Assembly: GCA_009841255.1 (NCBI GenBank)
Contig: VXMD01000026.1
Coordinates: 91,787 to 155,786, forward strand
DNA length: 64,000 bases
Source of the DNA: Candidatus Poribacteria bacterium
GTDB lineage: Bacteria > Poribacteria > WGA-4E > WGA-3G
Direction: 5' to 3'
Position numbers and translations under genes: made by a program
Part shown: piece after piece, positions 5,850-52,580 of the stretch
How the letters are laid out: the number at the start of each line of letters is the position of its first letter
Position numbering within the stretch: position 1 is the stretch's first letter
Notes under the pieces: generated by a model
What the model was told of the DNA's origin: nothing
The model's database searches: none
What the model saw: only the letters and a program-made list of their open reading frames with translations

Positions 5850-5967
5850 CAAAACCTTAGCCCGTAATGAAATGGAGGGGTTTTTGCTTGGGCGTTTCCC
5901 CTAGATCTACGGAGAGAAACGTTGGTCATTCAATTCACCTCACCGAACCGCAAGGTACATTAAAAAA
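5850..5967 (+). repeat. Mosaic repeat copy R3, supplies RBS of E1 beta gene
   Basis: A near-complete copy. It has the module AGCCCGTAATGAAATGGAGG, then GGTTTTTGCTTGGGCGTTTC, then AGATCTACGGAGAG, and ends with ACCGAACCGCAAGG and TACATTAAAAAA flush against the ATG at 5968. The only purine-rich Shine-Dalgarno in front of that gene is the AAGG inside the terminal box (13 nt from the ATG). Confidence 0.75.
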
Positions 5968-6951
5968 ATGAAAACTATTACGTATCGAGACGCGCTCAAG
6001 GAAGCACTCGTAGAGGAGATGGAACGCGATGATGCCGTCTTTCTGATGGGCGAGGATATCGCTGAATACGGTGGTGCCTATAAAGTAACGGACGGACTGT
6101 TCCAAGAATTCGGGAAAGACCGAATCCGAAACACGCCGATTTCAGAAGCCGCCATCATCGGGACTGCACTCGGCGCGGCGGTGACGGGGATGCGTCCTGT
6201 CGCGGAGTTGATGTACATCGACTTCACAGCGGTCGGCATGGACCAAATCGTGAACCAGGTCGCCAAGATCCGTTATATGGTGGGCGGTCAGTTAGATGTG
6301 CCGCTCGTGATTCGGACGCAGGGCGGTGCAGGGCGATCCTCGGCGGCGCAGCACGCACAGAGTCTTGAAGCCTGGTTCGTGCATATCCCCGGACTGCTCG
6401 TCGTTATGCCTTCTACCCCCTACGATGCGAAAGGTTTGCTGAAAACAGCCATTCGGGACGACAATCCAATCATGTTTATTGAACACAAACTTCTCTACAC
6501 AGAGGAGGGAGAGATCCCTGAGCAGGAATACACAATTCCGTTGGGGGTCGCTGATGTCAAGCGTGAGGGTGAAGATATTACGATTCTCGCGACGTCACGG
6601 ATGGTCTTAAACGCCCTTACCGCGGCCGACACACTTGCCGCTGAAGGTATCTCTGCTGAAATTATTGATCCACGGACGTTGATGCCACTCGACAAAGACA
6701 GTATTCTCGACTCTGTTCGGAAAACGAATCGGCTGCTTATCGCACACGAGGCGGTCGGTAGAGCAGGATTCGGAGCGGAGATCGCCGCACTTGTCGTACG
6801 GGAGGCGTTTGACTATCTCGATGCCCCGATTGAGCGGGTCGCCGCGGCACCTGTGCCTGTCCCCTTCGCACCAGTGATGGAAAATTTCGTTATTCCCGAT
6901 GCAGAACAGATTGCAGATGCAGCACGAAAACTTGTGCGTTATGAAATCTGA
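5968..6951 (+). CDS. 2-oxo acid dehydrogenase E1, beta subunit
   Basis: The transketolase-type beta chain of a pyruvate, acetoin or branched-chain 2-oxoacid dehydrogenase, 327 aa, full length. Typical motifs are LMGEDIAEYGGAYKVTDGL at the start, the ThDP-binding NTPISEAAIIGTALGAA with its catalytic-region Glu, and the C-terminal LIAHEAVGRAGFGAEIA. The alpha subunit is normally encoded immediately upstream; here the neighbour is an aminotransferase and no alpha, E2 or E3 gene is in the window. The substrate cannot be fixed from sequence. The RBS comes from repeat R3. Confidence 0.92.
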   Translation: MKTITYRDALKEALVEEMERDDAVFLMGEDIAEYGGAYKVTDGLFQEFGKDRIRNTPISEAAIIGTALGAAVTGMRPVAELMYIDFTAVGMDQIVNQVAKIRYMVGGQLDVPLVIRTQGGAGRSSAAQHAQSLEAWFVHIPGLLVVMPSTPYDAKGLLKTAIRDDNPIMFIEHKLLYTEEGEIPEQEYTIPLGVADVKREGEDITILATSRMVLNALTAADTLAAEGISAEIIDPRTLMPLDKDSILDSVRKTNRLLIAHEAVGRAGFGAEIAALVVREAFDYLDAPIERVAAAPVPVPFAPVMENFVIPDAEQIADAARKLVRYEI

Positions 6952-6965
6952 TCGAGTAAGTCCTA

Positions 6966-9035
6966 TTATTCTTGCACCTCTTTAGGTACAATAGGCTCCG
7001 AATCGATAGGGCCTACATCAAATTCAATAGGCTCCAGATCGATAGGATCTACATCAAATTCAAAATCCTTTATTATAGTTGGAAGATCCCACAGAATCAC
7101 AGTATGATCGCTGCTTCCACTTGCGAGTATTTTGCCATCTGGACTGAATGCTACGCTGTTGACCGGGCTGGTGTGTCCTTTGAGGATGTGCCGCAACACT
7201 CCGGTTTCCACATCCCATAAACATATCTCGGAGAATCCTACACTTACGAGTATTTTGCCATTCGGACTGAAGGCCACACTGTAAACACCACTCGTATGTC
7301 CGATGAGAGTTTGCTGCGGTCCCGGCCAGCTTGCATCCCATAAACGCACGGTTTTGTCTAAACTCCCACTTGCGAGCATCTCGCCATCCGGGCTAAACGC
7401 CACGCTTTCGACTGAATCAGTATGCCCTACAAAGGTCCATCTCCCTATGCCTTTCCATACATCCGATAAACGAATAGTTGTGTCCCAACTTGCGCTAGCT
7501 AACGTCCGATTATCTGGGCTGAATGCTACACTGTTAACAGAGAGAGTATGTCCGGTAATGGTTTGCTTCAACACACCCGCCTCCACATCCCAAAGTTTCA
7601 CAAAATAATTACCATCTCTATCACCGCCAGAACTCCAATTTGCTAACATCTTCCCATCGGGACTAAACACGCCACGGTCAAAGGAAGGATCAGGAAAAGA
7701 CCATGTCTCGTCTTCTATAAGTGTCTGATCCAACTTCAACGTCCCTGTCCTCACAGCCCATACTTTCACTGCATCACTATTTCCACTTGTGAGCGTTTTG
7801 CCCTCCGGACTGAAGACCACATTATATCGACTATCGTCCGTGGTGAGGGTCTGTTTTACCCTGCCTGTCTCCACATCCCATAAATGTACCCCATCGTAAC
7901 TAGCACTTGTGAGTATCTTACCATCTGGACTGAATGCGACATTATAGACATTACTCGTATACCCTGTGAGGGTCTGTTTTACCCAACCTGTCTCCACATC
8001 CCACAAACGTACGGTTTTGTCCAGACTGCCACTTGCCAATGTCTTGCCGTCTGGACTAAAGGCTATTCTAAAAATCGAACGCATGTGCCCTATGAGGATC
8101 TGCTTCAGCATACCTGTCCCGACATCCCACAAACGCACCTCAGGCCCATGCGCGCTTGCTAACGTTTTACCATCTGGACTGGACACCACGGCGGCATAAA
8201 ACGAATGACCAAAGAAACCATCCTTAGCCTCATACTCTGCAACAATTTTTTTTCTCTTCCCTGTTCCGGCATCCCAAAGATAAACCTTTCCGCCTTGACC
8301 AACTTCACCGGCACCTACCAATGTTTTGCCATCCCGACTGAACGCTATGCTTTTAATTCTGCTATCTTCAATTCGTGCCACATTTTCGGTAATGATATGC
8401 TTCAACGCGCCGGTTCCCGCATCCCATAAACGCACCTCAGTCTCAGATGTGCTTGCTAATGTCTTGCCATCGGGACTGAAGGCTAAGTTATGCACCCAAG
8501 AACCTCCATGCTCCATGAGTGTTTGCTGTATTCGCCCCGTCCGCACATCCCATAGAATTATAGGAATATCACGATCCGACTCCAAAATCCGCGATGCACT
8601 ACTTCCACTCGCTAATATTTTTCCATCTGGACTAAATACTACACTGAGGACATTTGCCTCATGTCCCACGAGGGTACGCTTCAATACCCCTGTTTGCACA
8701 TCCCACAAGCGAACAGTCTCATCCTCAGATGTGCTTGCTAATGTCTTGCCATCGGGACTGAAGGCTACACTGCGCACCTTACCTGTATGTCCTCTGAGAA
8801 AAAATACCACTTCACCTGTCGCTGTCCGATAAAGCCAAATACCGGGAAAAGTTCCAACCGCCAACAGATGACCATCAGGAGAATATGCAAGGTCACTTAC
8901 AAATCCCTTACCGAGTCGTAATTTCGCACCCTCGGGTAGACTTAACATGGCGGAGTTGTCGCAGAAGCCCCTGGAAACATATAGCATTAAACCCGCAATG
9001 TAAAGTAAAAAAATAAAAAACAACTTTCTTGTCAT
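6966..9035 (-). CDS. Secreted WD40 protein, 14 repeats
   Basis: The protein is 689 aa when started at the ATG at 9035, which has GGAAGG 6-8 nt upstream. A signal peptide (TRKLFFIFLLYIAGLMLY then SRGFCDN) is followed by 14 WD40 repeats, most ending in LWDV or LWDA and opening with VAFSPDGK. This is enough for two seven-bladed propellers. A tail after the last repeat holds an acidic tandem (FDVDPIDLEPI, FDVGPIDSEPI). It is probably an exported protein-binding scaffold; partner unknown. Repeat units are similar at the DNA level too, so copy number may vary. It runs convergent to the E1 beta gene and shares the minus strand with the carrier at 9061. Confidence 0.88.
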   Translation of the reverse strand: MTRKLFFIFLLYIAGLMLYVSRGFCDNSAMLSLPEGAKLRLGKGFVSDLAYSPDGHLLAVGTFPGIWLYRTATGEVVFFLRGHTGKVRSVAFSPDGKTLASTSEDETVRLWDVQTGVLKRTLVGHEANVLSVVFSPDGKILASGSSASRILESDRDIPIILWDVRTGRIQQTLMEHGGSWVHNLAFSPDGKTLASTSETEVRLWDAGTGALKHIITENVARIEDSRIKSIAFSRDGKTLVGAGEVGQGGKVYLWDAGTGKRKKIVAEYEAKDGFFGHSFYAAVVSSPDGKTLASAHGPEVRLWDVGTGMLKQILIGHMRSIFRIAFSPDGKTLASGSLDKTVRLWDVETGWVKQTLTGYTSNVYNVAFSPDGKILTSASYDGVHLWDVETGRVKQTLTTDDSRYNVVFSPEGKTLTSGNSDAVKVWAVRTGTLKLDQTLIEDETWSFPDPSFDRGVFSPDGKMLANWSSGGDRDGNYFVKLWDVEAGVLKQTITGHTLSVNSVAFSPDNRTLASASWDTTIRLSDVWKGIGRWTFVGHTDSVESVAFSPDGEMLASGSLDKTVRLWDASWPGPQQTLIGHTSGVYSVAFSPNGKILVSVGFSEICLWDVETGVLRHILKGHTSPVNSVAFSPDGKILASGSSDHTVILWDLPTIIKDFEFDVDPIDLEPIEFDVGPIDSEPIVPKEVQE

Positions 9036-20810: not shown

Positions 20811-20976
20811 TGTAATGAAATTATGCCTTAAATGGCATAATTTGTCCTTGCTTTACATTTGGATGGGTGTTTTTGATAGGGTATTTTTGCGTATTGCTTG
20901 GGTATTTTTTCAGATCTACGGAAAGGCACTTCAATGTCTATACCCTGCTTACCGAACCGCAAGGTAAAATTAAAAA
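20811..20976 (+). repeat. Mosaic repeat copy R4 with internal palindrome
   Basis: The order is TGTAATG, a perfect inverted repeat AAATTATGCC / GGCATAATTT (20818-20843, 6-nt loop TTAAAT), TTGCTTTACATTTGGA, then GCGTATTGCTTGGGTATTTT, CAGATCTACGGAAAGGCACT and the terminal box ACCGAACCGCAAGG plus TAAAATTAAAAA. The palindrome is the same as at 52519-52544 in reverse. It separates ybeY from the CorC-like gene; the box ends 35 bp before that start. Confidence 0.7.
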
Positions 20977-34224: not shown

Positions 34225-34230
34225 CCGTTG

Positions 34231-36075
34231 ATGAATATTGACGGAGTTCGCTTCAAAAGCGAATTTACACTCGTAAAAATCGTCCTACTCTGTATTCTGA
34301 TTGCCTCAGCGGTTTTAGTGCTGCGGAACCTCGGACATAGTGGAATTACGTATTGGGACGAAGGGTTCCACGCCGTCGTCGCACGGAATTTGACGAAACA
34401 TCCGCTCAAATTCACGCTCTACGATCAGCCTTGGCTCCCTTATGATTACAAAGGTTGGGGTGAAAACCACATCTGGCTCCATAAACCGCCGGTGGCGATG
34501 TGGACAATCTGGTTCTCACACCTTATTTTCGGCATCAATACATTCGCGCTCCGGTTGCCGTCGGCAATCAGTCTGGTTGTAACGACGTGGTTGACGTTTC
34601 GGATCGCTGCGGATCTCTTTGACAAACGAGCAGGACTCATTGCGGCATTTCTCCAAGCGTTTAACCCGTTTCTCTTTGCGTCGGTTCACGGCTATCGCTA
34701 TTCGGATCACATCGACATCGCTTTGTTGCTCTGGGTTCAGGTTTCGTGTTGGTTCCTGCTCCGAGCGGTTCGGACCGGAAAACGGCGGAATTACATCTTA
34801 TCCGGTGTCGCGATGGGGATCGCCTATCTGTCGAAAAGTTACCTCGCGCTCATCACCTTTGGCATTGCATTGGTTGTTTGGGGGGTTGCTTGGTATACTG
34901 AACGGGGCAATCCGAGATCCAAGGATCGCAGCCCAAGCATCGCGCCGGGCGGATATACGGAAAGGAACCGAAAAACCTCAAGCCCATCTGACCGAACCGC
35001 AAGGAAAATTAAAATAAGCGATATTGGGATACAACTCTTAGCAGCAATTGCGACAGTCGCACCGTGGGTTATCTATTGTCTGGTTTACTATCGTAAAGAA
35101 TTCCTTTGGGAACATAAACGCGTGTTGGATCACCTCAACACCGATGTCGAAAGTTGGGGGGCGAGTTGGGATCGACCGCTATTTGACTATATGCCCTTGT
35201 TCTATCCGGTGTTCTATGCTGCCCTCGTTGCGGCGGTATTGTGTCTGTTGGTGGTTATGTTCAGACGCTGGAACTTAGCCGAACTATTTGTGTTAGCGTG
35301 GAGCATTGGGGTCATCGTTCCACACACGCTGGCAGAGACAAAAACGCCATCGGCAACGATGATCGCAGTGCCACCGTTGCTCATCTGTCTCGCAGCAGTC
35401 ATCAGCCGAGCGTGGCAACGACGGGACTGGATTTATACCGCTATTTGGATGGCAGGAATGCTAGCAATTACGATTATCTCCGGTGGACGGACTTTGGTCA
35501 AGGGACGGGACCAATTCGATGGACTGAAGAAAATCGCTCCCTTTATTGAGACGAATTTCTGGATTGTTGAGCAACTTGTTGGGTTTGGGGTGTTGCTCGC
35601 AATTTGCGCGGGTGTGTATATACTGGTTCGCCACCGCAATGTGCAAAGGTGGATATGGTTTGGATTCCGAACAGTGGCACTGATAATAGCGTTGTTCTAT
35701 GCAGGACGCTATGTTCATGCCGCTTACAGGGTCACGGAGCGGAATCTTCAGGTCCCCTTGTATGAAGTGAGTGGACAGCGTCTCCAACGTGAGATGCCAG
35801 AGAATGCCTGCTTCTTTCTTGACGATGAACGCGTCGGCGCACATTTCGATTTGATGTATTACGCCGACAGGTCAACGTATCAGATTTACAATAAGCACAT
35901 GAAGGCACCTCGCGATTTTAAGAGCCAAGCCGAGATAGCACGTGAAGCGGGTGCAATCCCGTATCTTTTCTCTGTCAAAGAAATAACTTATAATTATCCG
36001 CTGTTCATTGAAGGCGAAGTGGACAGCGGGAATGGAAAAATGCAACGGTATCGGGTTTTTGAAATTACGGATTAA
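34231..36075 (+). CDS. GT39/ArnT-like membrane glycosyltransferase with in-frame repeat
   Basis: A 614-aa polytopic membrane protein of the PMT/ArnT (GT-C) type, transferring sugar from a polyprenyl phosphate donor at the periplasmic face. The loop 1 catalytic motif is ITYWDEGFHAVVARNL (Asp-Glu), followed by many hydrophobic helices. Between two membrane segments, residues about 226-262 (YTERGNPRSKDR, SPSIAPGGYTERNRK, SPSDRTARKIKI) are encoded by a copy of the mosaic repeat, inserted without breaking the frame. Removing it leaves a normal loop. The ATG at 34231 is used; TTG at 34228 is adjacent. Confidence 0.85.
   Translation: MNIDGVRFKSEFTLVKIVLLCILIASAVLVLRNLGHSGITYWDEGFHAVVARNLTKHPLKFTLYDQPWLPYDYKGWGENHIWLHKPPVAMWTIWFSHLIFGINTFALRLPSAISLVVTTWLTFRIAADLFDKRAGLIAAFLQAFNPFLFASVHGYRYSDHIDIALLLWVQVSCWFLLRAVRTGKRRNYILSGVAMGIAYLSKSYLALITFGIALVVWGVAWYTERGNPRSKDRSPSIAPGGYTERNRKTSSPSDRTARKIKISDIGIQLLAAIATVAPWVIYCLVYYRKEFLWEHKRVLDHLNTDVESWGASWDRPLFDYMPLFYPVFYAALVAAVLCLLVVMFRRWNLAELFVLAWSIGVIVPHTLAETKTPSATMIAVPPLLICLAAVISRAWQRRDWIYTAIWMAGMLAITIISGGRTLVKGRDQFDGLKKIAPFIETNFWIVEQLVGFGVLLAICAGVYILVRHRNVQRWIWFGFRTVALIIALFYAGRYVHAAYRVTERNLQVPLYEVSGQRLQREMPENACFFLDDERVGAHFDLMYYADRSTYQIYNKHMKAPRDFKSQAEIAREAGAIPYLFSVKEITYNYPLFIEGEVDSGNGKMQRYRVFEITD
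34906..35015 (+). repeat. Mosaic repeat copy R5, inside a coding sequence
   Basis: Carries CGGGCGGATATACGGAAAGG, AACCTCAAGCCCATCTG and the terminal box ACCGAACCGCAAGG plus AAAATTAAAATAA. All of it is read in the glycosyltransferase frame with no stop codon, giving a basic, disordered-looking insert ending ARKIKI. The left boundary is approximate. Confidence 0.75.
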
Positions 36076-36100: not shown

Positions 36101-36250
36101 TTCAAAAATCAAGCCCGAAACAACGTGGAGGGGTTTTGCTTGGGGTTTTTGCTTGGGTGTTTCTGCGTATTTCTGCGTATTTCTTCAACTCGAACACGAA
36201 AACCTTCAAGTATCAAAAACTATTACTTATCCGCAAGGAAAATCAAAAAA
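36101..36250 (+). repeat. Mosaic repeat copy R6, supplies RBS of secreted protein gene
   Basis: AAGCCCGAAACAACG, then GGAGGGGTTTTGCTTGGGG and a duplicated TTTTTGCTTGGG, TTCTGCGTATTTCTGCGTAT, TCGAACACGAAAACC and the terminal box CCGCAAGGAAAATCAAAAAA flush with the ATG at 36251. An upstream ATG at 36125 opens a long hydrophobic-looking reading of the repeat itself but is not the natural start. Confidence 0.75.
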
Positions 36251-39226
36251 ATGAAATTATTACGATTTATATGCTTATCTATAATTCTTGCGCTCATTGT
36301 GTTATCGGTGAGTGCAGATGTGGATTGGAAAGCCCTTGATGTCGGCAACCTATCGTCTGCTATCTATAACACAGCAGTCGTTGGGTTCCCGAGTAACCCT
36401 ACCGCGAACCCATCGGGATGGTGGCCCGCGGGAACAAACGATTCCTATATCTTCGAGGGAGATATCTGGATCGGTGCGAAAAAAGGCGGTGAGGTCGGTG
36501 TTTCTGCCTCAGATGGCAGGCACAGCGAAATTTGGCCCACTGACGACGTGCCAGAGGTTATCTCAGACAAACCCGGTGTGACGACAAAAGGAACGCCAAC
36601 GAACCAAGCGATCATGTTCAGATGCTCCGATACAAATCCTGAGGCAAATAAGGATTTGATTCTGGGTTTAGAACTTGAAGTTAACGGCTTCCAATGGAGT
36701 TACGCCCCGCTCTACGACTTCTTCATCTTGGAGTATAATGTCAAAAACGTTGGCGCTGACACACTTGAAGACTTGTTTATGGCGTTCCGTTACGATGTGG
36801 ACATCTCCAGTAACGAGACAGGGACAGCGAGTTACTCCGCAGATGATTTCGTCGCTCTGGACCAGACGCCAGATGCGCTCAATCCAGTGGATCACCCGAA
36901 CCGTTACCTCTCTTACGGATTCTCCAACGCCTCCGCGCCTGGGTATATCGGCTTACGGGTATTGGATGCGTATATAGGGGAGAATGCTGAGGATCCAACG
37001 GCAAAAATTCCTTTCACAGCACACAAACGGATTACGATTACCACGGACCCAACGACGGATGCGGAGATGTACGCTTTAATTAGTACGCCGGGTGTCGAGC
37101 CGCTCCCAGCAAACTATGACGACCAGCGTTTTATTCAGTCCTACGGACCGGTTGCGTCGCTTGCGCCGGGTGAGTCCTTCAACATCATTATCGCTGTGGC
37201 AATCGGTGAAGGACTGGCGGGTTTGCAATCGTCTTCGGACTGGGCACAGAAGTTATACGACGATGGCTACGTTGCCCCGGCACCGCCGCCTTCCCCACTG
37301 GTAACTGTTTATCCTGCCGATAAACAGGTGACACTCGTCTGGGAAAGTGAGGGGCGCTGGGTGGATGCAGGAGTCGGCAAGCGCATCGAAGAATATATCG
37401 ATGTGACCGACCCAGAGAAAATCTTTGAGGGATACCGGGTTTACAGACGCGATGTTTCTTATGATGAATCCACTGGTAACCCTGTTGAGGATTGGACAAT
37501 GCTCATGGAATTCGACAAACCGAGTGCGACGGGCAATTTCTTTACGGTGTCGCATGTCGGTAAGCAGTCGGATGCCACTATAGAAAGCATGGGCGATGAA
37601 CCTTTCTTCGCGGATTTCTTCAAAAACGCCGTCTACGTCATCAAATTCAACTCCAGCACAGATTTTGAAGTCATTAACACGACACTGTGGGAGGTTATGG
37701 CGTATAATACCGCGTTCCCAGGGAACGGCGGTGGATACGTTATCATCAAAGATCCGAATACAGGCGAACCGTATCCTGACGGGACATATCGTTCCGGTGC
37801 TCGGATCTACTTCGGTGGACTCTATGTGCAAATTAGCGACGGTCCCTCGGGACCCCCTGTTGCTGGTGACATCTTCCAAGTCGTCTCGACCCCTTCGCAG
37901 GCACTCGGTGAGGACGTAGGGATCAAAAATTTCTACACCGACGCAGGCTTAACCAACGGGCTTGAATACACCTATGCGGTGACCTCGTTTGATACGGGTA
38001 ATCCGAAAACGGGGTTGATCTCAATGGAGAGTAGCCAAATCGAGACGATGGTTCACGTTGTTCCACGTGCCCAGCCTGCGGGATACCGAGAACCTGCTGT
38101 TGATATAGAACAGCAAGGACAGGGAAGTGTGACCGTCGAACCGACGGTCCTTGCACCCAACAAAATTACCGGTCACCAATATAAAATCGTCTGGTACGGC
38201 GCAAAACAAACAGGTCCCGGAGCATATATCACAGGTCCCGGGTATCAACCGCCCGCTTATGAGATTGTTAATATGACGACCGACAAAATTGTCGTCGAGA
38301 AACAGTCTTTTGACTGGTTCGACCCTCTCCACGGTGAAGCTATTGAAGTACTTTCCCCGATGTTCGATGGTATCGTCTTGAAGATAACAGGGGTCAACGT
38401 ATACTACGGCAGTCCGATGGAAAATCCGATTGACGACGTTAAACTGACGGCAGGCACAGTGACGGGGTGGGAGGTAAACATTCAATCTCCAGGTGCCGGT
38501 GAGAACACGTGGCCGAACATCTTTTGGGCAACGTATTATCGTCCACATACGTATTCAATCACGTTTGTCGACGATACCCACGTCAAGGTGGTAGATGAGG
38601 ATACGGGTGAAGAAATCCAATTCAACGACCAGCGCGCTGCTGGATACGCAATTCTCACAGGTACGGGTTGGCGTGATACATATAACCCAGCGGAAACACC
38701 CGGTTTCTTCCGGATTTTTATTCGCGGTGGATACGTCTTTATAAAAGATCCAAACGGTGAAATCTCCGCTGGAGATGTCTTCACCGTCGACATGGGCGGC
38801 GTCAGTGCACCACAAGATGGAGATGAATTTCTCTTGAATACAAGAGAGGAAACCTTGTCGCCTGAAGACATTGAGGCGGATCTCGGGAAGATTCGGGTCG
38901 TCCCAAACCCATATTTCGTTACGAACAGAGCGGTCCTGTCCGAAGGAACGGACAAGATCTTCTTCACGCACCTTCCGCCGCGATGTACCATCCGAATTTA
39001 CACGTTAGCGGGTGAATTAGTCCGAACGCTTGAACACGAGAGCACTGCCCTTTATAACCCGGGTGAACGGGCGCAAGGCGACAAAGGCGGAACTGCATCA
39101 TTTGAACTCCTTAATCGCTACAACCAGGCACTCGCAAGTGGCGTTTATATCTTCCATGTTGAAGCCAGAGACGAAAATGATGAAGTCGTCGGTAACAAAA
39201 TTGGCAGATTCGCGATCATTCGATAG
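36251..39226 (+). CDS. Large secreted protein with C-terminal FlgD-like sorting domain
   Basis: A 991-aa exported protein. A signal peptide (LLRFICLSIILALIVLSVSA) is cut before DVDWKALDVG. The body has beta-rich Fn3-like segments (VTVYPADKQVTLVWE, GYRVYRRDVSYDESTG). The C-terminus is IRVVPNPYFVTNRAV, TIRIYTLAGELVRTLEHEST, ALASGVYIFHVEARDE and GRFAIIR, the FlgD/type-IX-like C-terminal domain pattern. Such domains target cargo for T9SS-type secretion in Bacteroidetes and related lineages. The next gene encodes a PorV-like protein, which fits. The AAGG of repeat R6 is the only Shine-Dalgarno. Confidence 0.82.
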   Translation: MKLLRFICLSIILALIVLSVSADVDWKALDVGNLSSAIYNTAVVGFPSNPTANPSGWWPAGTNDSYIFEGDIWIGAKKGGEVGVSASDGRHSEIWPTDDVPEVISDKPGVTTKGTPTNQAIMFRCSDTNPEANKDLILGLELEVNGFQWSYAPLYDFFILEYNVKNVGADTLEDLFMAFRYDVDISSNETGTASYSADDFVALDQTPDALNPVDHPNRYLSYGFSNASAPGYIGLRVLDAYIGENAEDPTAKIPFTAHKRITITTDPTTDAEMYALISTPGVEPLPANYDDQRFIQSYGPVASLAPGESFNIIIAVAIGEGLAGLQSSSDWAQKLYDDGYVAPAPPPSPLVTVYPADKQVTLVWESEGRWVDAGVGKRIEEYIDVTDPEKIFEGYRVYRRDVSYDESTGNPVEDWTMLMEFDKPSATGNFFTVSHVGKQSDATIESMGDEPFFADFFKNAVYVIKFNSSTDFEVINTTLWEVMAYNTAFPGNGGGYVIIKDPNTGEPYPDGTYRSGARIYFGGLYVQISDGPSGPPVAGDIFQVVSTPSQALGEDVGIKNFYTDAGLTNGLEYTYAVTSFDTGNPKTGLISMESSQIETMVHVVPRAQPAGYREPAVDIEQQGQGSVTVEPTVLAPNKITGHQYKIVWYGAKQTGPGAYITGPGYQPPAYEIVNMTTDKIVVEKQSFDWFDPLHGEAIEVLSPMFDGIVLKITGVNVYYGSPMENPIDDVKLTAGTVTGWEVNIQSPGAGENTWPNIFWATYYRPHTYSITFVDDTHVKVVDEDTGEEIQFNDQRAAGYAILTGTGWRDTYNPAETPGFFRIFIRGGYVFIKDPNGEISAGDVFTVDMGGVSAPQDGDEFLLNTREETLSPEDIEADLGKIRVVPNPYFVTNRAVLSEGTDKIFFTHLPPRCTIRIYTLAGELVRTLEHESTALYNPGERAQGDKGGTASFELLNRYNQALASGVYIFHVEARDENDEVVGNKIGRFAIIR

Positions 39227-39233
39227 CACATTC

Positions 39234-39262
39234 CTTGTAGGAGCGAGTTCCAACTCGCGATA
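39234..39262 (+). repeat. Gene-end hairpin (GTAGGAGCGAG type)
   Basis: TTGTAGGAGCGAGTT and AACTCGCGATA: GCGAGTT and AACTCGC pair (39243-39258) with a 2-nt loop. It begins 8 bp after the stop of the large secreted protein gene and is followed by repeat R7. Related elements are at 49928, 51268 and 58976. Confidence 0.5.
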
Positions 39263-39269
39263 TATTTCA

Positions 39270-39368
39270 TCAAAAACCATAGCCCGTAATGAAATGGAGG
39301 GCGAATTTATGAAAGGCACTTCAACTATGAAACCTGCGTTGTTTCTCCGCAAGGAAAAATTAAAAAAT
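39270..39368 (+). repeat. Mosaic repeat copy R7, encodes start of PorV-like gene
   Basis: TAGCCCGTAATGAAATGGAG, then GGCGAATTTATGAAAGGCAC, and the terminal box CTCCGCAAGGAAAAATTAAAAA (39346-39367). The GGAGG here is 8 nt before the ATG at 39309, so the gene starts inside the repeat and the terminal box is translated as FLRKEKLKN. Confidence 0.75.
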
Positions 39369-40415
39369 ACGCTATTATTCATACTTCTTTTACTGTGGAG
39401 TGTGCCCAGTCATGCGACAACCAATGTCGGCACAGCGGGTGCACAGTTTCTGAAAATTGGTCCCGGTGCGCGGGTAGACAGTCTCGGTGGTGCATTTGGT
39501 GCGCTCGCTAACGACGTAACCAGTATCTATTGGAACCCAGCAGGGATAAGCCAGCTCGAAAAAACCAGTTTTTCGGACACACATACCGTTTGGCTTGCCG
39601 ATGTCCGCTATAATTATCTAGCGTTCGCAACGCCGATAAAAAATATCGGCACCTTGGGTGCGAGCGTCACATTTCTCAACGTCCCTGATACGGAGATTAC
39701 AACATTGGCGAAACCCGACGGGACGGGTCTCTGGTATTCCGCTTATGATACTGCCGTCTCGTTGGCGTATGCCCGGCAGCTTTACAAACAGGAATCCGGC
39801 GTTAAGTTGTCTGTCGGTATTAACGCGAAATACATCCACCAGCAGATCCACCGTGAAAGTGCCAGGGGTGTTGCGATTGATGTCGGCACCTTGTACCATA
39901 CCGGCTGGCGAAGTTTACGGATCGGGATGTGTTTCTCGAACTTTGGACCGGAGATGCGCTTCGGTGGTCCCGATTTGACAAGCGGGGCAGAGGTTGCAGG
40001 CGACCCAAGGATAGCGAGTTACCGTCCGTTTCCAGACACAACAAATCCCGCACGGAAAGCAGAATTAGAGACGATTGAGTTCCCGTTACCTTCCAATTTT
40101 CGGCTCGGACTCGCCTACGATGTTATTGATTCCGGGGACAACCTCCTCACCCTCGCTCTCGATGCCAACCATCCCAATGACAACAGTGAACGTCTGAACA
40201 TCGGCATGGAGTACTGGTACAGAAAAATGGCGGCGATTCGGGGCGGTTACAAATTCCGATTGGGTGAAGACCGCGCAGATGATGAAGAGGGGCTTACACT
40301 CGGTTTGGGCATCCACCTGAACCTTGGCAGAAGGGTCCTTTCTCTCGATTATGCATACGCTGATTTCGGACGCCTACAACAGGTACACCGGGTGAGTGTT
40401 GGACTCCAATTTTAG
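39309..40415 (+). CDS. PorV/PorQ-like outer-membrane barrel protein
   Basis: A 368-aa protein: basic n-region (MKPALFLRKEKLKN, partly repeat-encoded), hydrophobic LLFILLLLWSVPSHA, then TNVGTAGAQFLKIGPGARVD, SLGGAFGALANDVTSIYWNP and AGISQLEK. These glycine-rich turns at the start are the hallmark of the PorV/PorQ (UPF0164) family, and the protein ends in aromatic SVGLQF like outer-membrane barrels. In T9SS PorV is a shuttle for cargo with C-terminal sorting domains, and the upstream gene encodes such a cargo-like protein. Starts at 39309 or 39327 are possible; 39309 has the better Shine-Dalgarno. Confidence 0.82.
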   Translation: MKGTSTMKPALFLRKEKLKNTLLFILLLLWSVPSHATTNVGTAGAQFLKIGPGARVDSLGGAFGALANDVTSIYWNPAGISQLEKTSFSDTHTVWLADVRYNYLAFATPIKNIGTLGASVTFLNVPDTEITTLAKPDGTGLWYSAYDTAVSLAYARQLYKQESGVKLSVGINAKYIHQQIHRESARGVAIDVGTLYHTGWRSLRIGMCFSNFGPEMRFGGPDLTSGAEVAGDPRIASYRPFPDTTNPARKAELETIEFPLPSNFRLGLAYDVIDSGDNLLTLALDANHPNDNSERLNIGMEYWYRKMAAIRGGYKFRLGEDRADDEEGLTLGLGIHLNLGRRVLSLDYAYADFGRLQQVHRVSVGLQF

Positions 40416-45834: not shown

Positions 45835-46050
45835 AGCCTGCAACAATACGCAGAAATACGCAGAAATGCCCAAGCAAAAACCCCAAGCAAAAACACGCAG
45901 GCGGATATGGGCAACGCACGTCAAGTTCAAACGCACGCTGTTCCTCCGCAAGGAAAAATTAAAAACCTGCAACATCGGCGCAGGCGGATATACGGGAAGG
46001 CATATTATTTTTCAAAACCGATCTCATCGAACCGCAAGGAAAGTTAAAAA
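45835..46050. repeat. Mosaic repeat copies R8a/R8b, part inverted
   Basis: From 45838 the module reads in reverse (GCAACAATACGCAGAAATAC, CCAAGCAAAAACCCCAAGC). Then plus-oriented parts follow: a terminal box CTCCGCAAGGAAAAATTAAAAA (45944-45965), GCAACATCGGCGCAGGCGGA, TATACGGGAAGGCA and a second box CGAACCGCAAGGAAAGTT plus AAAAAT ending at the ATG at 46052. The palindromic GCCTGCAAC / GTTGCAGGC ends make this copy look foldback-like. It supplies the RBS of the HEAT-repeat gene. Confidence 0.7.
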
Positions 46051-46051
46051 T

Positions 46052-49000
46052 ATGAAAATCTGTATCCATCTCTCACTCATTATGGCTATTGTTCTCGTGA
46101 TAGGGTGTGGCGAGAAAGAGAACAGGGACATTATTGAAGCACGAGCCGCTATTGTTCGCGCGGATTATGCTGCCGCACAAGCGGCACTTCAGAGGACGGA
46201 CGCTGGAAATCAGGAGGCGCGACATCTGAAGGCTTTCTTACAAAACCGGACGCGCACCGAGGCAGAAGGTTGGCACCAAGCCATTGCACAATCGAATGCT
46301 TATCTTGAAACGTTGGCAGCGGACATCCTCGCTATCTCGTTGATGGAAGATCCGGATTCTGACGAACTTGATCGACAGGAAAGACTTGTACGTTCGCAGA
46401 ATTCCATCTCTGGACTCTTTGTTATATCGCTTGCTGAAGCGGTCGAAAAGCGCGCAGAATTGCTCTCTGAACTTGTAGCACATGAGGAGGCGGCTGTGGT
46501 TATAGGGCTTTTAGCCGCAGAAAAATGCTATCAACCCAAGGTGCTCGCAACGGTCTCGGAACTCCGGGCAAAGCTTGGAGATGGAGACGCCGTTGTTGAA
46601 CGTTTACGGCAGGCGATACACCATAAGGATACAGCCATACAAAAAGAGGCGATCCGTTATCTCGGTGCGATGCGAAACCCTGAACTTATCCCGACTTTTG
46701 AAGACGTTCTCGCCAAAGCCGAGAATGCCCCTGAAGTCGCCTACACAGCAATTGTCGCACTTGAACAATCCATCGGTGTCGTAGGGGTTGGGTTACCCAA
46801 CCCTTACGCAGCCATTGTGCCGGGGTTGCAACTCGCCCTCAGAAACAACAGTGCGCAGGTTCGGATGCACGCTGCTAAACTCCTGGGGAGCATCCAGACG
46901 GAAACGGTTGTTCCCGATCTCGTCCGGCTTCTCGCAGATCCGAACAGTTACGTCAAAGATACGGCTATAGGTGCCCTGAATCGTATCGGAGAACCCGCCG
47001 TTGCGCCGTTACTTGAGGTGTTGGACACGGGGGCGCGAAACCTCATTCCTGATGAGGATACCGGTTTTGCGACTGAATATCAGTACATCGCGAGTGCTTA
47101 TATTGATGGCTTATGGATGAAGAAGTATAGAATCGGAACCTTATCAGCCACAATCCAAGCATTGGGGTTACTCAAATCCAAAGATGGGGTAGAAGCACTC
47201 ATAGACGAGTTAGCAAACGAGGAGTTGCAAGATGAGGCATTAGCGGCACTCGTTGAGATGCGCGGCGTTGCTGTTCTACCGATGATTGATGCGCTCAAGA
47301 ACGAGACGGACGAAATTCGGGTCAAGGTTACAGATGCACTTGGACAAATCGGTGATCGGCGCGCAATCGTTCCACTCATTGAAGCATTAGACGGTGATCC
47401 ATACAAAGAGGTGAAGGCACTTGCCGCAGTCGGGCTCGGTAATATACGGGCACGTGGCGCGAATAACAGGGCGGTCATCGCTCTCACGAATGCTCTCTCT
47501 TATGACGACACTACCGCGACAAACGCCGCAGAAGCGCTCGGAAAAATCGGTGTATCCACGGAAGATGCCGTTCAAAAGTTGATTATCATAGCGATGGAAA
47601 AACAGATGCGTGAGACTTTACGCATCGCCGCTCTTACGGCACTCTGGCGACTCAAACCTGAGGAAGCAACGCAGCCGATGTTACTGCTGATGTTCAGTGA
47701 CGAGACGAGTCCCGTCATACGGGCAAACGCCGTCAAGGTGCTGAGTCGAATCCAAGCGCCTGAATCGATCCCTGTGTTACTTTGGGTTCTTTCCACACAA
47801 TTTGACGAAATTTCAGATTTTCAACGGCACATGAAGCGCGAGTACAAAACGCTGGACAGGCTCCGAACACAAGTTGACGCCTTCCAGATTCAATGGACAT
47901 CTGACTATCCACGCGCAAACTATCGGACATGGGGTGAACTCAAACCGATTCCGAGTCTTGTTCGGAGTGAGGTTGCTCGAGCACTCGGTATCATCAAGGG
48001 GGACACTGTCGTAGAACCTCTGGCAAACGCACTTCGGGACGATGGACGCGCAACCGTGCGGCAAAGCGCCGCGTGGGCATTCGGTGAAGTCAAGGGTGAT
48101 ATTGCGACTGCTGCGCTTATCACTGCATTGAAGAAAGATAAACAGGGTGCTGTCCGACAGGAAGCAGCAATCGCACTTGGAAAAATAAAAGGTCAGAAGG
48201 TGGTCGCACCTCTGATAGATGTTCTGAAAAACGATAAATATGAAACGACGCGCTTTCAAGCCGCAAAGGCACTCCTAGAGATTCAAGCCGGAGATAAAGG
48301 GCTTGTTGATATTATCAAGAAGGGCTTGGGGAGTTTTGATGATGGATACGAGGTGCAATCTGTCCAAGACCAGGTCATTGCCTCATTAATCAAAGATAAC
48401 AACATTCCAACAGCCCAATTTGCACTCGACGCTCTTAAATCTGCGGATGATGAGTGGGTACGATGGGCACTCGTCCATATCATCGGAGCGAGTGCGAAAA
48501 AGGTTGCCGTTGATGCAATGCTGGCGGAATTGGAAAATCCGAGCTATGTCGTTCGTAGACGCGCCGCAGAGTCGTTAGGGGGTTACAAAGAGCGTCGAGT
48601 TGTTGAACCGTTGATTGCTGTTCTCGAAAATATGGATGAGATGAAATCCGTTCGTGCGGCGGCGGCAGTTTCCTTGGGCGCGCTTAAAGATGAACGTGCC
48701 TCCGCATCACTGCTAACTGCACTCTCCGATGAAAATGCCGAAATTCGGTTGCAAGCCGCTGTTGCTTTAGGGAAGCTCAAGGATGCTAAAGCGGTTGTAC
48801 AACTCAGTGAGATTGTTGAAAATCCGCTGGAGTTGGATACTGTCCGCGATGCCGCCGTGGCAGCGCTCGGCAATATTGGGGTTAAATCCGCTGAAGATGT
48901 ATTAATTCGCGCTTTAGATATCCGAGTCGGGAATATCTCAAAGAACGCTGTTGTTGCTTTGGGCAAACTCGAAAGTGAGGCAGCAATTCCTGATTTAATT

Positions 49001-49954: not shown

Positions 49955-50070
49955 AAAAACCGTAGCCCGTAACGAAGCGGAGGGGTTTTTGCTTGGGTGT
50001 TTCTTCAGATTTAAGGAAAACACTTCAAAATCCTAACCTACGCCGTTTCTCCGCAAGGTAAGATTAAAAA
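49955..50070 (+). repeat. Mosaic repeat copy R9
   Basis: The full module order is visible: AAAACCGTAGCCCGTAACGA, GGAGGGGTTTTTGCTTGGG, TTCTTCAGATTTAAGGAAAA, CACTTCAAAATCCTAACCTA, TTTCTCCGCAAGG and TAAGATTAAAAA. It is followed by a separate AGGAG and the ATG at 50082, so here the gene has its own Shine-Dalgarno behind the box. Confidence 0.8.
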
Positions 50071-52487: not shown

Positions 52488-52580
52488 CTGGACTGCTCTC
52501 CAAATGTAAAGCAAAGACAAATTATGCCATTTAAGGCATAATTTCATTACGAGCAGGTTTCTGGTTAAGTCTCGACTGAA
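52488..52580 (-). repeat. Inverted mosaic-repeat portion with palindrome
   Basis: Contains CTGGACTGCTCTCC, TGTAAAGCAAAGACA, the palindrome AAATTATGCC / GGCATAATTT (52519-52544), CATTACGAGCAGG and TTTCTGGTTA. It matches R4 in reverse (20811-20860) and 5753-5803 in sense without the palindrome. Confidence 0.6.

Follow-up and report, generated by a model that had tools for sequence, protein, structure and literature searches.

The BOX elements of Streptococcus pneumoniae are dispersed, modular repeats that lie near genes. The nearest precedents for the repeat described here are two other families, the Rickettsia palindromic elements (RPE) and the Yersinia RU-2 repeat, of which RU-2 is the closest in kind. 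RPE are described as short dispersed repeats, about 150 bp in length, that are inserted into protein-coding genes, conserved ones among them, without breaking the reading frame (PMC10969869, PMC2229807). The RU-2 (or YPAL) repeat is described as making up a portion of the signal peptide predicted for YPO1552; counterparts in other genera have signal sequences unrelated to it (PMC2759123).

The genome studied here (G000) is a 5.73-Mb assembly, and the window, the whole stretch of 64,000 nucleotides that we analyzed, sits in its contig C26. Within the window lies the following gene:

39309–40415, forward strand: PorV/PorQ-family protein gene with a predicted repeat-derived N-terminus (ORF list; NCBIfam NF033709)

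The product matches the PorV_fam model NF033709 (E 5.5e-68, 229.9 bits against a cut-off of 90) and falls under the equivalog cut-offs for the T9SS PorV/PorQ proteins proper (NF033710, 86.7 versus 250 bits; NF033711, 104.3 versus 220 bits). Some PorV-family gene was found in all 60 genomes searched, G000 included, and the nearest relatives in a scan of named genomes come from Candidatus Poribacteria MAGs, which we take to be sponge symbionts. The genomes compared are MAGs as far as named, and the gene calls are our own.

The predicted start of the gene falls within a full copy of a dispersed repeat, which has these features:

39237–39260, forward strand: REP-like hairpin (GTAG-GAGCGAGTTCCAACTCGC), read directly, after the stop codon of the upstream gene and before the element
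39279–39367, forward strand: dispersed repeat element, full copy of ~89 nt (covariance-model match 1–90 of 90, E 8.4e-20; repeat-finder families D4, D5, D7, and D9)
39282–39302, forward strand: hairpin P1 (GCCC / GGGC), with compensatory changes and a predicted pair probability of 0.98
39296–39301, forward strand: GGAGGG, Shine-Dalgarno of the predicted start (anti-Shine-Dalgarno duplex −9.8 kcal/mol, spacing 7)
39309–39311, forward strand: predicted start codon ATG inside the repeat, in frame in all five repeat-bearing orthologues
39347–39365, forward strand: terminal box CCGCAAGGAAAAATTAAAA, translated in frame as R-K-E-K-L-K

The covariance model was built on 48 G000 copies, with the copy at 39279–39367 among the training set, and it finds 14 matches in the window, this copy being one. 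The repeat is not a product of chance, because its left module TAGCCCGTAATGAAATGGAGGG occurs four times with at most three mismatches (0.00 expected from shuffles) and its box 19 times (1.9 expected). The hairpin at 39237–39260, called REP-like for a putative resemblance, accompanies the element in the other repeat-bearing orthologues and is duplicated in G034. An earlier note on this DNA had placed a GGAGG 8 nt before an ATG within the repeat, which proves exact to the base (39296–39300, ending 8 nt before ATG 39309), and a 16S tail, TGGATCACCTCCTT, carrying the anti-Shine-Dalgarno is found in G000. The same note had read the box as the n-region FLRKEKLKN; codons 39342–39368 (TTT CTC CGC AAG GAA AAA TTA AAA AAT) do encode this peptide in frame, and its role as an n-region stays a prediction. 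The repeat-derived part of the predicted product includes KGTSTMKPALFLR.

Comparison of filled and empty sites reveals what the repeat has displaced. A close orthologue is present in 37 of the 38 genomes of the genus (G013 has distant matches only), and we read the upstream DNA of 35 of these 37 (G060 and G061 left out) along with that of 12 orthologues from other genera. Twenty-nine of the 35 are repeat-less and begin with a native ATG CGA.. and MRHIIYT-like N-termini; their native leader follows right after the stop codon of the upstream gene and mostly contains AGGAGA, 5 nt ahead of the ATG. The start and N-terminus are repeat-derived in five (G000, G010, G033, G034, and G025), all of which lack the native ribosome site, the ATG, and about six codons, so that native ..TTTATACGCTTTTATTC becomes ..TTAAAAAATACGCTATTATTC at the junction; in G000 the native sequence picks up again at ..ATACGCTATTATTC. 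The remaining orthologue, in G017, has a different copy that runs from AAAAAA directly into native ATGCGACATG and ends exactly at the native ATG, with the native Shine-Dalgarno gone. The repeat is absent upstream of all 12 orthologues outside the genus. Orthologues sharing the N-terminus without the repeat would have contradicted the earlier reading; the N-terminus occurs in none of the 29 repeat-less orthologues of the genus and in none of the 12 from other genera.

It would be most surprising if this arrangement were an assembly artifact or a dead allele. Although the named genomes are assemblies from metagenomes and a run of N interrupts one element region in G000 contig C17, the join is common to five separate genomes, including the single-contig chromosome of G010, and an artifact would need identical misjoining in all five. 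The downstream ORF is likewise intact in every one of them. The PorV frame is open in the five species, the sole indel being 9 nt in length (a deletion in G034).

The strength of the Shine-Dalgarno singles out one start codon. The in-repeat ATG has an anti-Shine-Dalgarno duplex of −9.8 kcal/mol at a spacing of 7 in four of the five alleles and of −6.4 in G034, where the motif is GGAGAG, whereas other candidate starts in these alleles reach −3.0 at best, leaving a strong Shine-Dalgarno only at the in-repeat ATG. The best ATG of 42 other orthologues has a median value of −7.4, and four of the 42 have almost no Shine-Dalgarno; the G017 start relies on the AAGG of the box (−4.9). As the earlier note had held, there is no in-frame ATG, GTG, or TTG between the box and the hydrophobic core, either in G000 or in the four other repeat-bearing orthologues. 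The next in-frame start codon past the box is GTG 39402, 45 nt before FLKIG and beyond the hydrophobic core. From sequence features of this kind we infer that ATG 39309 is probably the codon used, with initiation via GGAGG and a peptide from the repeat predicted to function as the n-region. The predicted n-region has a net charge of +3 to +5 in the five repeat-bearing orthologues versus +1 to +3 in the six native ones scored. In the predicted fold, P1 takes up GGG, one half of GGAGGG, and initiation may therefore be damped or regulated. Purifying selection on amino acids is not seen in the repeat-derived PorV codons, for which pN/pS is 0.92 versus 0.96 and 0.61 in the control frames (four alleles, the G034 allele with the 9-nt deletion not being among them).

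Two other placements of the start deserve attention. Translation might begin inside the repeat at ATG 39327, TTG 39339, or ATG 39294, all of which are in frame, and TTG 39339 is kept in the five alleles. We consider this unlikely: in G000, neither ATG 39294 nor TTG 39339 is preceded by a Shine-Dalgarno (0.0), and ATG 39327 has one of −2.6 and is TTG instead in G010, G033, and G025. Alternatively, the repeat could be a mere 5′ leader, with a nonstandard start just after the box at ACG 39369 or nearby. This codon occupies the place at which an ATG adjoins the box in 55 of 129 copies, and odd starts may exist, as a G000 ABC-transporter ORF has no standard start near its box. A start at ACG 39369, however, would give MLLFILLLLW, without a basic n-region, and a strong Shine-Dalgarno and in-frame ATG lie 60 nt upstream of it in G000 and are kept in all five alleles. 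Nor is ACG 39369 the decayed ATG of a normal box-ATG junction, an idea ruled out by the repeat-less orthologues, in which it is a native Thr codon. We regard a leader role as decidedly improbable and favor initiation at ATG 39309.

The five bearers are scattered on a gene tree rooted on G038, with G030, the sister of G010, and G035, the sister of G025, both without the repeat. Elements of G010, G033, G034, and G025 are 97.5–98.9% identical over 79–88 nt, and third codon positions of the PorV-family gene in the same four bearers are 57–78% identical; the G000 element is 85–87% identical to those of the other four. Because the bearers are scattered on the tree and the element identity lies far above the third-position identity, we infer that the repeat-bearing 5′ end may have spread laterally by recombination and that G000 may have split off earlier. 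Constraint, as opposed to transfer, could account for part of the high element identity.

Overall, we put a probability of about 0.78 on an account in which the repeat replaced the 5′ end of the gene, supplies its start and n-region, and spread by recombination. A copy of a repeat abundant in one Poribacteria genus came to occupy the space from the stop codon of the upstream gene to the PorV-family gene, taking the place of the native ribosome-binding site and ATG and of about six further codons; this replacement, the open frame, the strength of the Shine-Dalgarno, and the presence in five genomes are shown by the sequences. The gene would have kept its function, we propose, since the repeat can be read through in the required frame and has GGAGGG 7 nt before its ATG. 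ATG 39309 would then start translation, with the linker and box (MKGTSTMKPALFLRKEKLKN) forming a longer and more basic n-region before the native hydrophobic core, and the repeat-bearing 5′ end would have passed between species by recombination.

The exact box pattern occurs 435 times in G000 (zero times with the pattern read backwards), 217–348 times in each of seven close relatives (G008, G010, G013, G017, G024, G030, and G034), and 0–93 times in the remaining genomes of the genus that were searched. In other genera the box is absent bar one match, at G047:C5:4934-4952, and G047 has one full-length covariance-model match among the matches listed; this single copy would represent either transfer or contamination. 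In an alignment of 48 copies, P1 pairing is kept by compensatory changes at three of its four pairs. Because these copies were chosen for a paired stem, the share of kept pairs is a biased figure, unlike the variety of pair types. The box contains CC-GCAA-GG, whose two pairs are invariant in the 48 aligned copies, and this hairpin and the 5′ P1 hairpin are the only predicted consensus pairs of the element. The whole element folds no more stably than shuffles (z −0.09, 0.67, and −0.61), and therefore P1 alone has the backing of covariation. By eye, linker and box also seemed able to form a second, long-range helix; it is poorly supported and we do not propose it, as its pairs break in several type A copies and it is not found in type B. 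At the gathering score, Rfam models matched only tRNAs in the window, with one sub-threshold snoRNA match at the PorV locus.

The repeat does not have the marks of a MITE. Terminal inverted repeats are not seen, as copies begin GTAGCC.. and end ..TTAAAA without pairing, and target-site duplication is not seen at the few filled and empty sites of the window compared by eye, where the element replaces sequence up to the ATG. The Y1 transposase domain PF01797, with RAYTs counted together with other Y1 proteins, occurs in 36 of 37 genomes; by the same count, G013 has 218 boxes and 0 matches, and G005 has 11 boxes and 12 matches. A Y1 transposase was considered as the mover; copy number has no visible relation to PF01797 matches so counted.

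Other repeats lie in and around the copies. Some copies have a GGGGTTTTTGCTTGGGTGTTTC module, in one orientation or the other, inside their P1 loop (window 5877–5907, 36134–36181, 45845–45892, and 49982–50012). A 52-nt repeat (GTAATGAAATTATGCCTTAAATGGCATAATTT...) occurs at window 20812–20863 and 52499–52550 with 98% identity and in opposite orientation, and similar sequence precedes element copies elsewhere. Window 7104–8778 is an imperfect direct-repeat array with a period of ~120 nt, probably a repeat protein.

Copies are strongly placed against start codons. In 1.22 Mb of G000, TTAAAA is followed at −1 to +4 nt by the start ATG of an ORF of 80 or more codons at 55 of 129 boxes, and in the reverse-orientation control none of the 129 has such an ATG within 10 nt. 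In 400 kb of G010 the counts are 21 of 45 boxes versus 0 of 45 reversed, both at −1 to +4. Control rates are 79 of 4000 for random positions and, for TTAAAA without a box, 19 of 279 (G010) and 50 of 843 (G000). At several of the sites compared in the window between filled and empty states, the element has taken the place of the native leader as far as the ATG. The exact end of the element at the ATG would be compatible with selection to preserve a start as well as with a targeting mechanism. Three copies of the window are placed as follows:

5857–5968, forward strand: copy with a loop insert, its 3′ end adjoining the ATG of the next gene at 5968 (filled/empty comparison, covariance model)
36177–36251, forward strand: degenerate copy at the start of the upstream gene, its box adjoining the native-like ATG 36251 (covariance model, comparison)
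45962–46052, forward strand: copy supplying the A of a new ATG (46052) at a gene junction (filled/empty comparison, covariance model)

At 46052, relatives have TTG AAA ATC, and the new ATG shortens the N-terminus. The longest ORF of the upstream gene runs from GTG 36125, which lies inside a repeat 126 nt upstream of ATG 36251; MKLLRF-like starts are kept in relatives, and the gene's start is likely ATG 36251, not GTG 36125. Annotated gene starts in these genomes may often be misplaced in this manner. The suggestion that one repeat offers different initiation sites according to context is borne out: elsewhere its 3′ end adjoins a start codon, or an ATG or GTG in the linker is the only plausible start.

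Other genes read through the repeat as well. By a rough coding-frame call, 18 of the 129 boxes are read through without an in-frame ATG after the box, a few of them short or tandem cases; two of the 18 ORFs have a non-ATG start adjoining the box (ScpA, TTG; C17:44358, GTG), and nine of the 10 submitted to Pfam contain a known domain. We compared three genes with their orthologues, reading 30 loci for each, out of the 34, 33, and 36 genomes, respectively, that had a match. A BioF-like aminotransferase begins MKSKTHLTEPQGKLKNWLDTER in G000, with similar N-termini in G007, G010, G017, and G030 (5 of 30; G008 ambiguous), and its native orthologues have MTHNYDWLDTER-like N-termini. The membrane protein C4:50404 has MKVL..LT.PQG.IKRI in G000, G008, G017, and G024 and, in a version with GTG, also in G010 (5 of 30), and native orthologues have MPLSKRKKII-like N-termini. 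The membrane protein C12:44866 has a repeat-derived N-terminus in G000 only (1 of 30); in G008 (L317), the N-terminus of its orthologue seems to come from a different repeat (GGGGTTACAAACCCCTCCCAC). All three genes start at the linker ATG or GTG, not through the GGAGG of module 1. Among 74 paired-stem copies, 39 have GGAG and four of these an ATG 4–13 nt later, and only the PorV copy has a frame that stays open across the box and continues as a long ORF. For the repeat-derived codons, pN/pS is 0.23 in frame versus 0.49 and 1.78 in control frames in the BioF-like gene and 0.61 versus 0.41 and 1.07 in C4:50404; because samples are small, only the BioF-like case leans towards translation.

The earlier claim that the box lies outside the ORF in other copies was too strong, as more in-frame copies exist, among them this one:

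34928–35017, forward strand: in-frame copy inside the PMT_2/STT3-like gene 34225–36075 (Pfam, covariance model, relatives)

This insert is present in G000 and G025; G024 retains a remnant of it, and five relatives lack it. An NAD kinase ORF of G000 contig C12 (L230:12607-13839) contains two tandem in-frame copies, with a box at residue 247, between Pfam domains at 45–157 and 266–385. In contig C5, an ABC-transporter ORF that runs through the box (L206:3534-4298, reverse strand) has no ATG, GTG, or TTG from the upstream stop codon to 45 nt past the box, possibly a nonstandard start or an error. A ThiE-like ORF of the same contig (L207:10806-11507) has ATT where an ATG usually adjoins the box, and the closest standard start codon in its frame, a TTG, comes 14 nt later.

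We tentatively raise, at somewhat less than even odds, the idea that the repeat is a mobile gene-start cassette that recurrently replaces gene 5′ ends within one bacterial genus. Such a cassette would supply either a ready-made leader for ribosome loading, up to the ATG, or the start itself together with the opening 15–20 codons. Gene beginnings would then be swapped like exons, and new N-termini, n-regions included, would be tried across hundreds of genes.

Our literature search, in which subscription journals were thinly covered, found no report of this repeat in Poribacteria. At the PorV locus, a dispersed repeat would have turned into the start signal and the first residues of a conserved gene for an exported protein, and sister species provide the empty-site controls. 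As one of several such cases, it offers a testable system for the turnover of bacterial gene starts and signal peptides. Among known systems, REP sequences would be the counterpart of the GTAG and following hairpin at the 5′ end of most copies; the Poribacteria unit differs in running ~65 nt past the hairpin, in its conserved box, and in its strong orientation towards starts. BOX elements are similar by description as dispersed bacterial repeats, and we found no account of their placement exactly at a start codon. Like RPE, the Poribacteria repeat also lies in frame within conserved genes (34225–36075 and the NAD kinase ORF). The likeness is one of description, in an unrelated organism, and the RPE passages concerned deal with within-gene insertions, whereas the Poribacteria repeat, within-gene copies notwithstanding, more often adjoins a start codon or replaces a gene beginning. 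Compared with RU-2 as the cited passages present it, the Poribacteria repeat is predicted to give the Shine-Dalgarno, start codon, and n-region, with the hydrophobic core remaining native. It goes beyond the RU-2 case so described in that the empty state is seen in 29 congeners and the repeat is set against start codons genome-wide.
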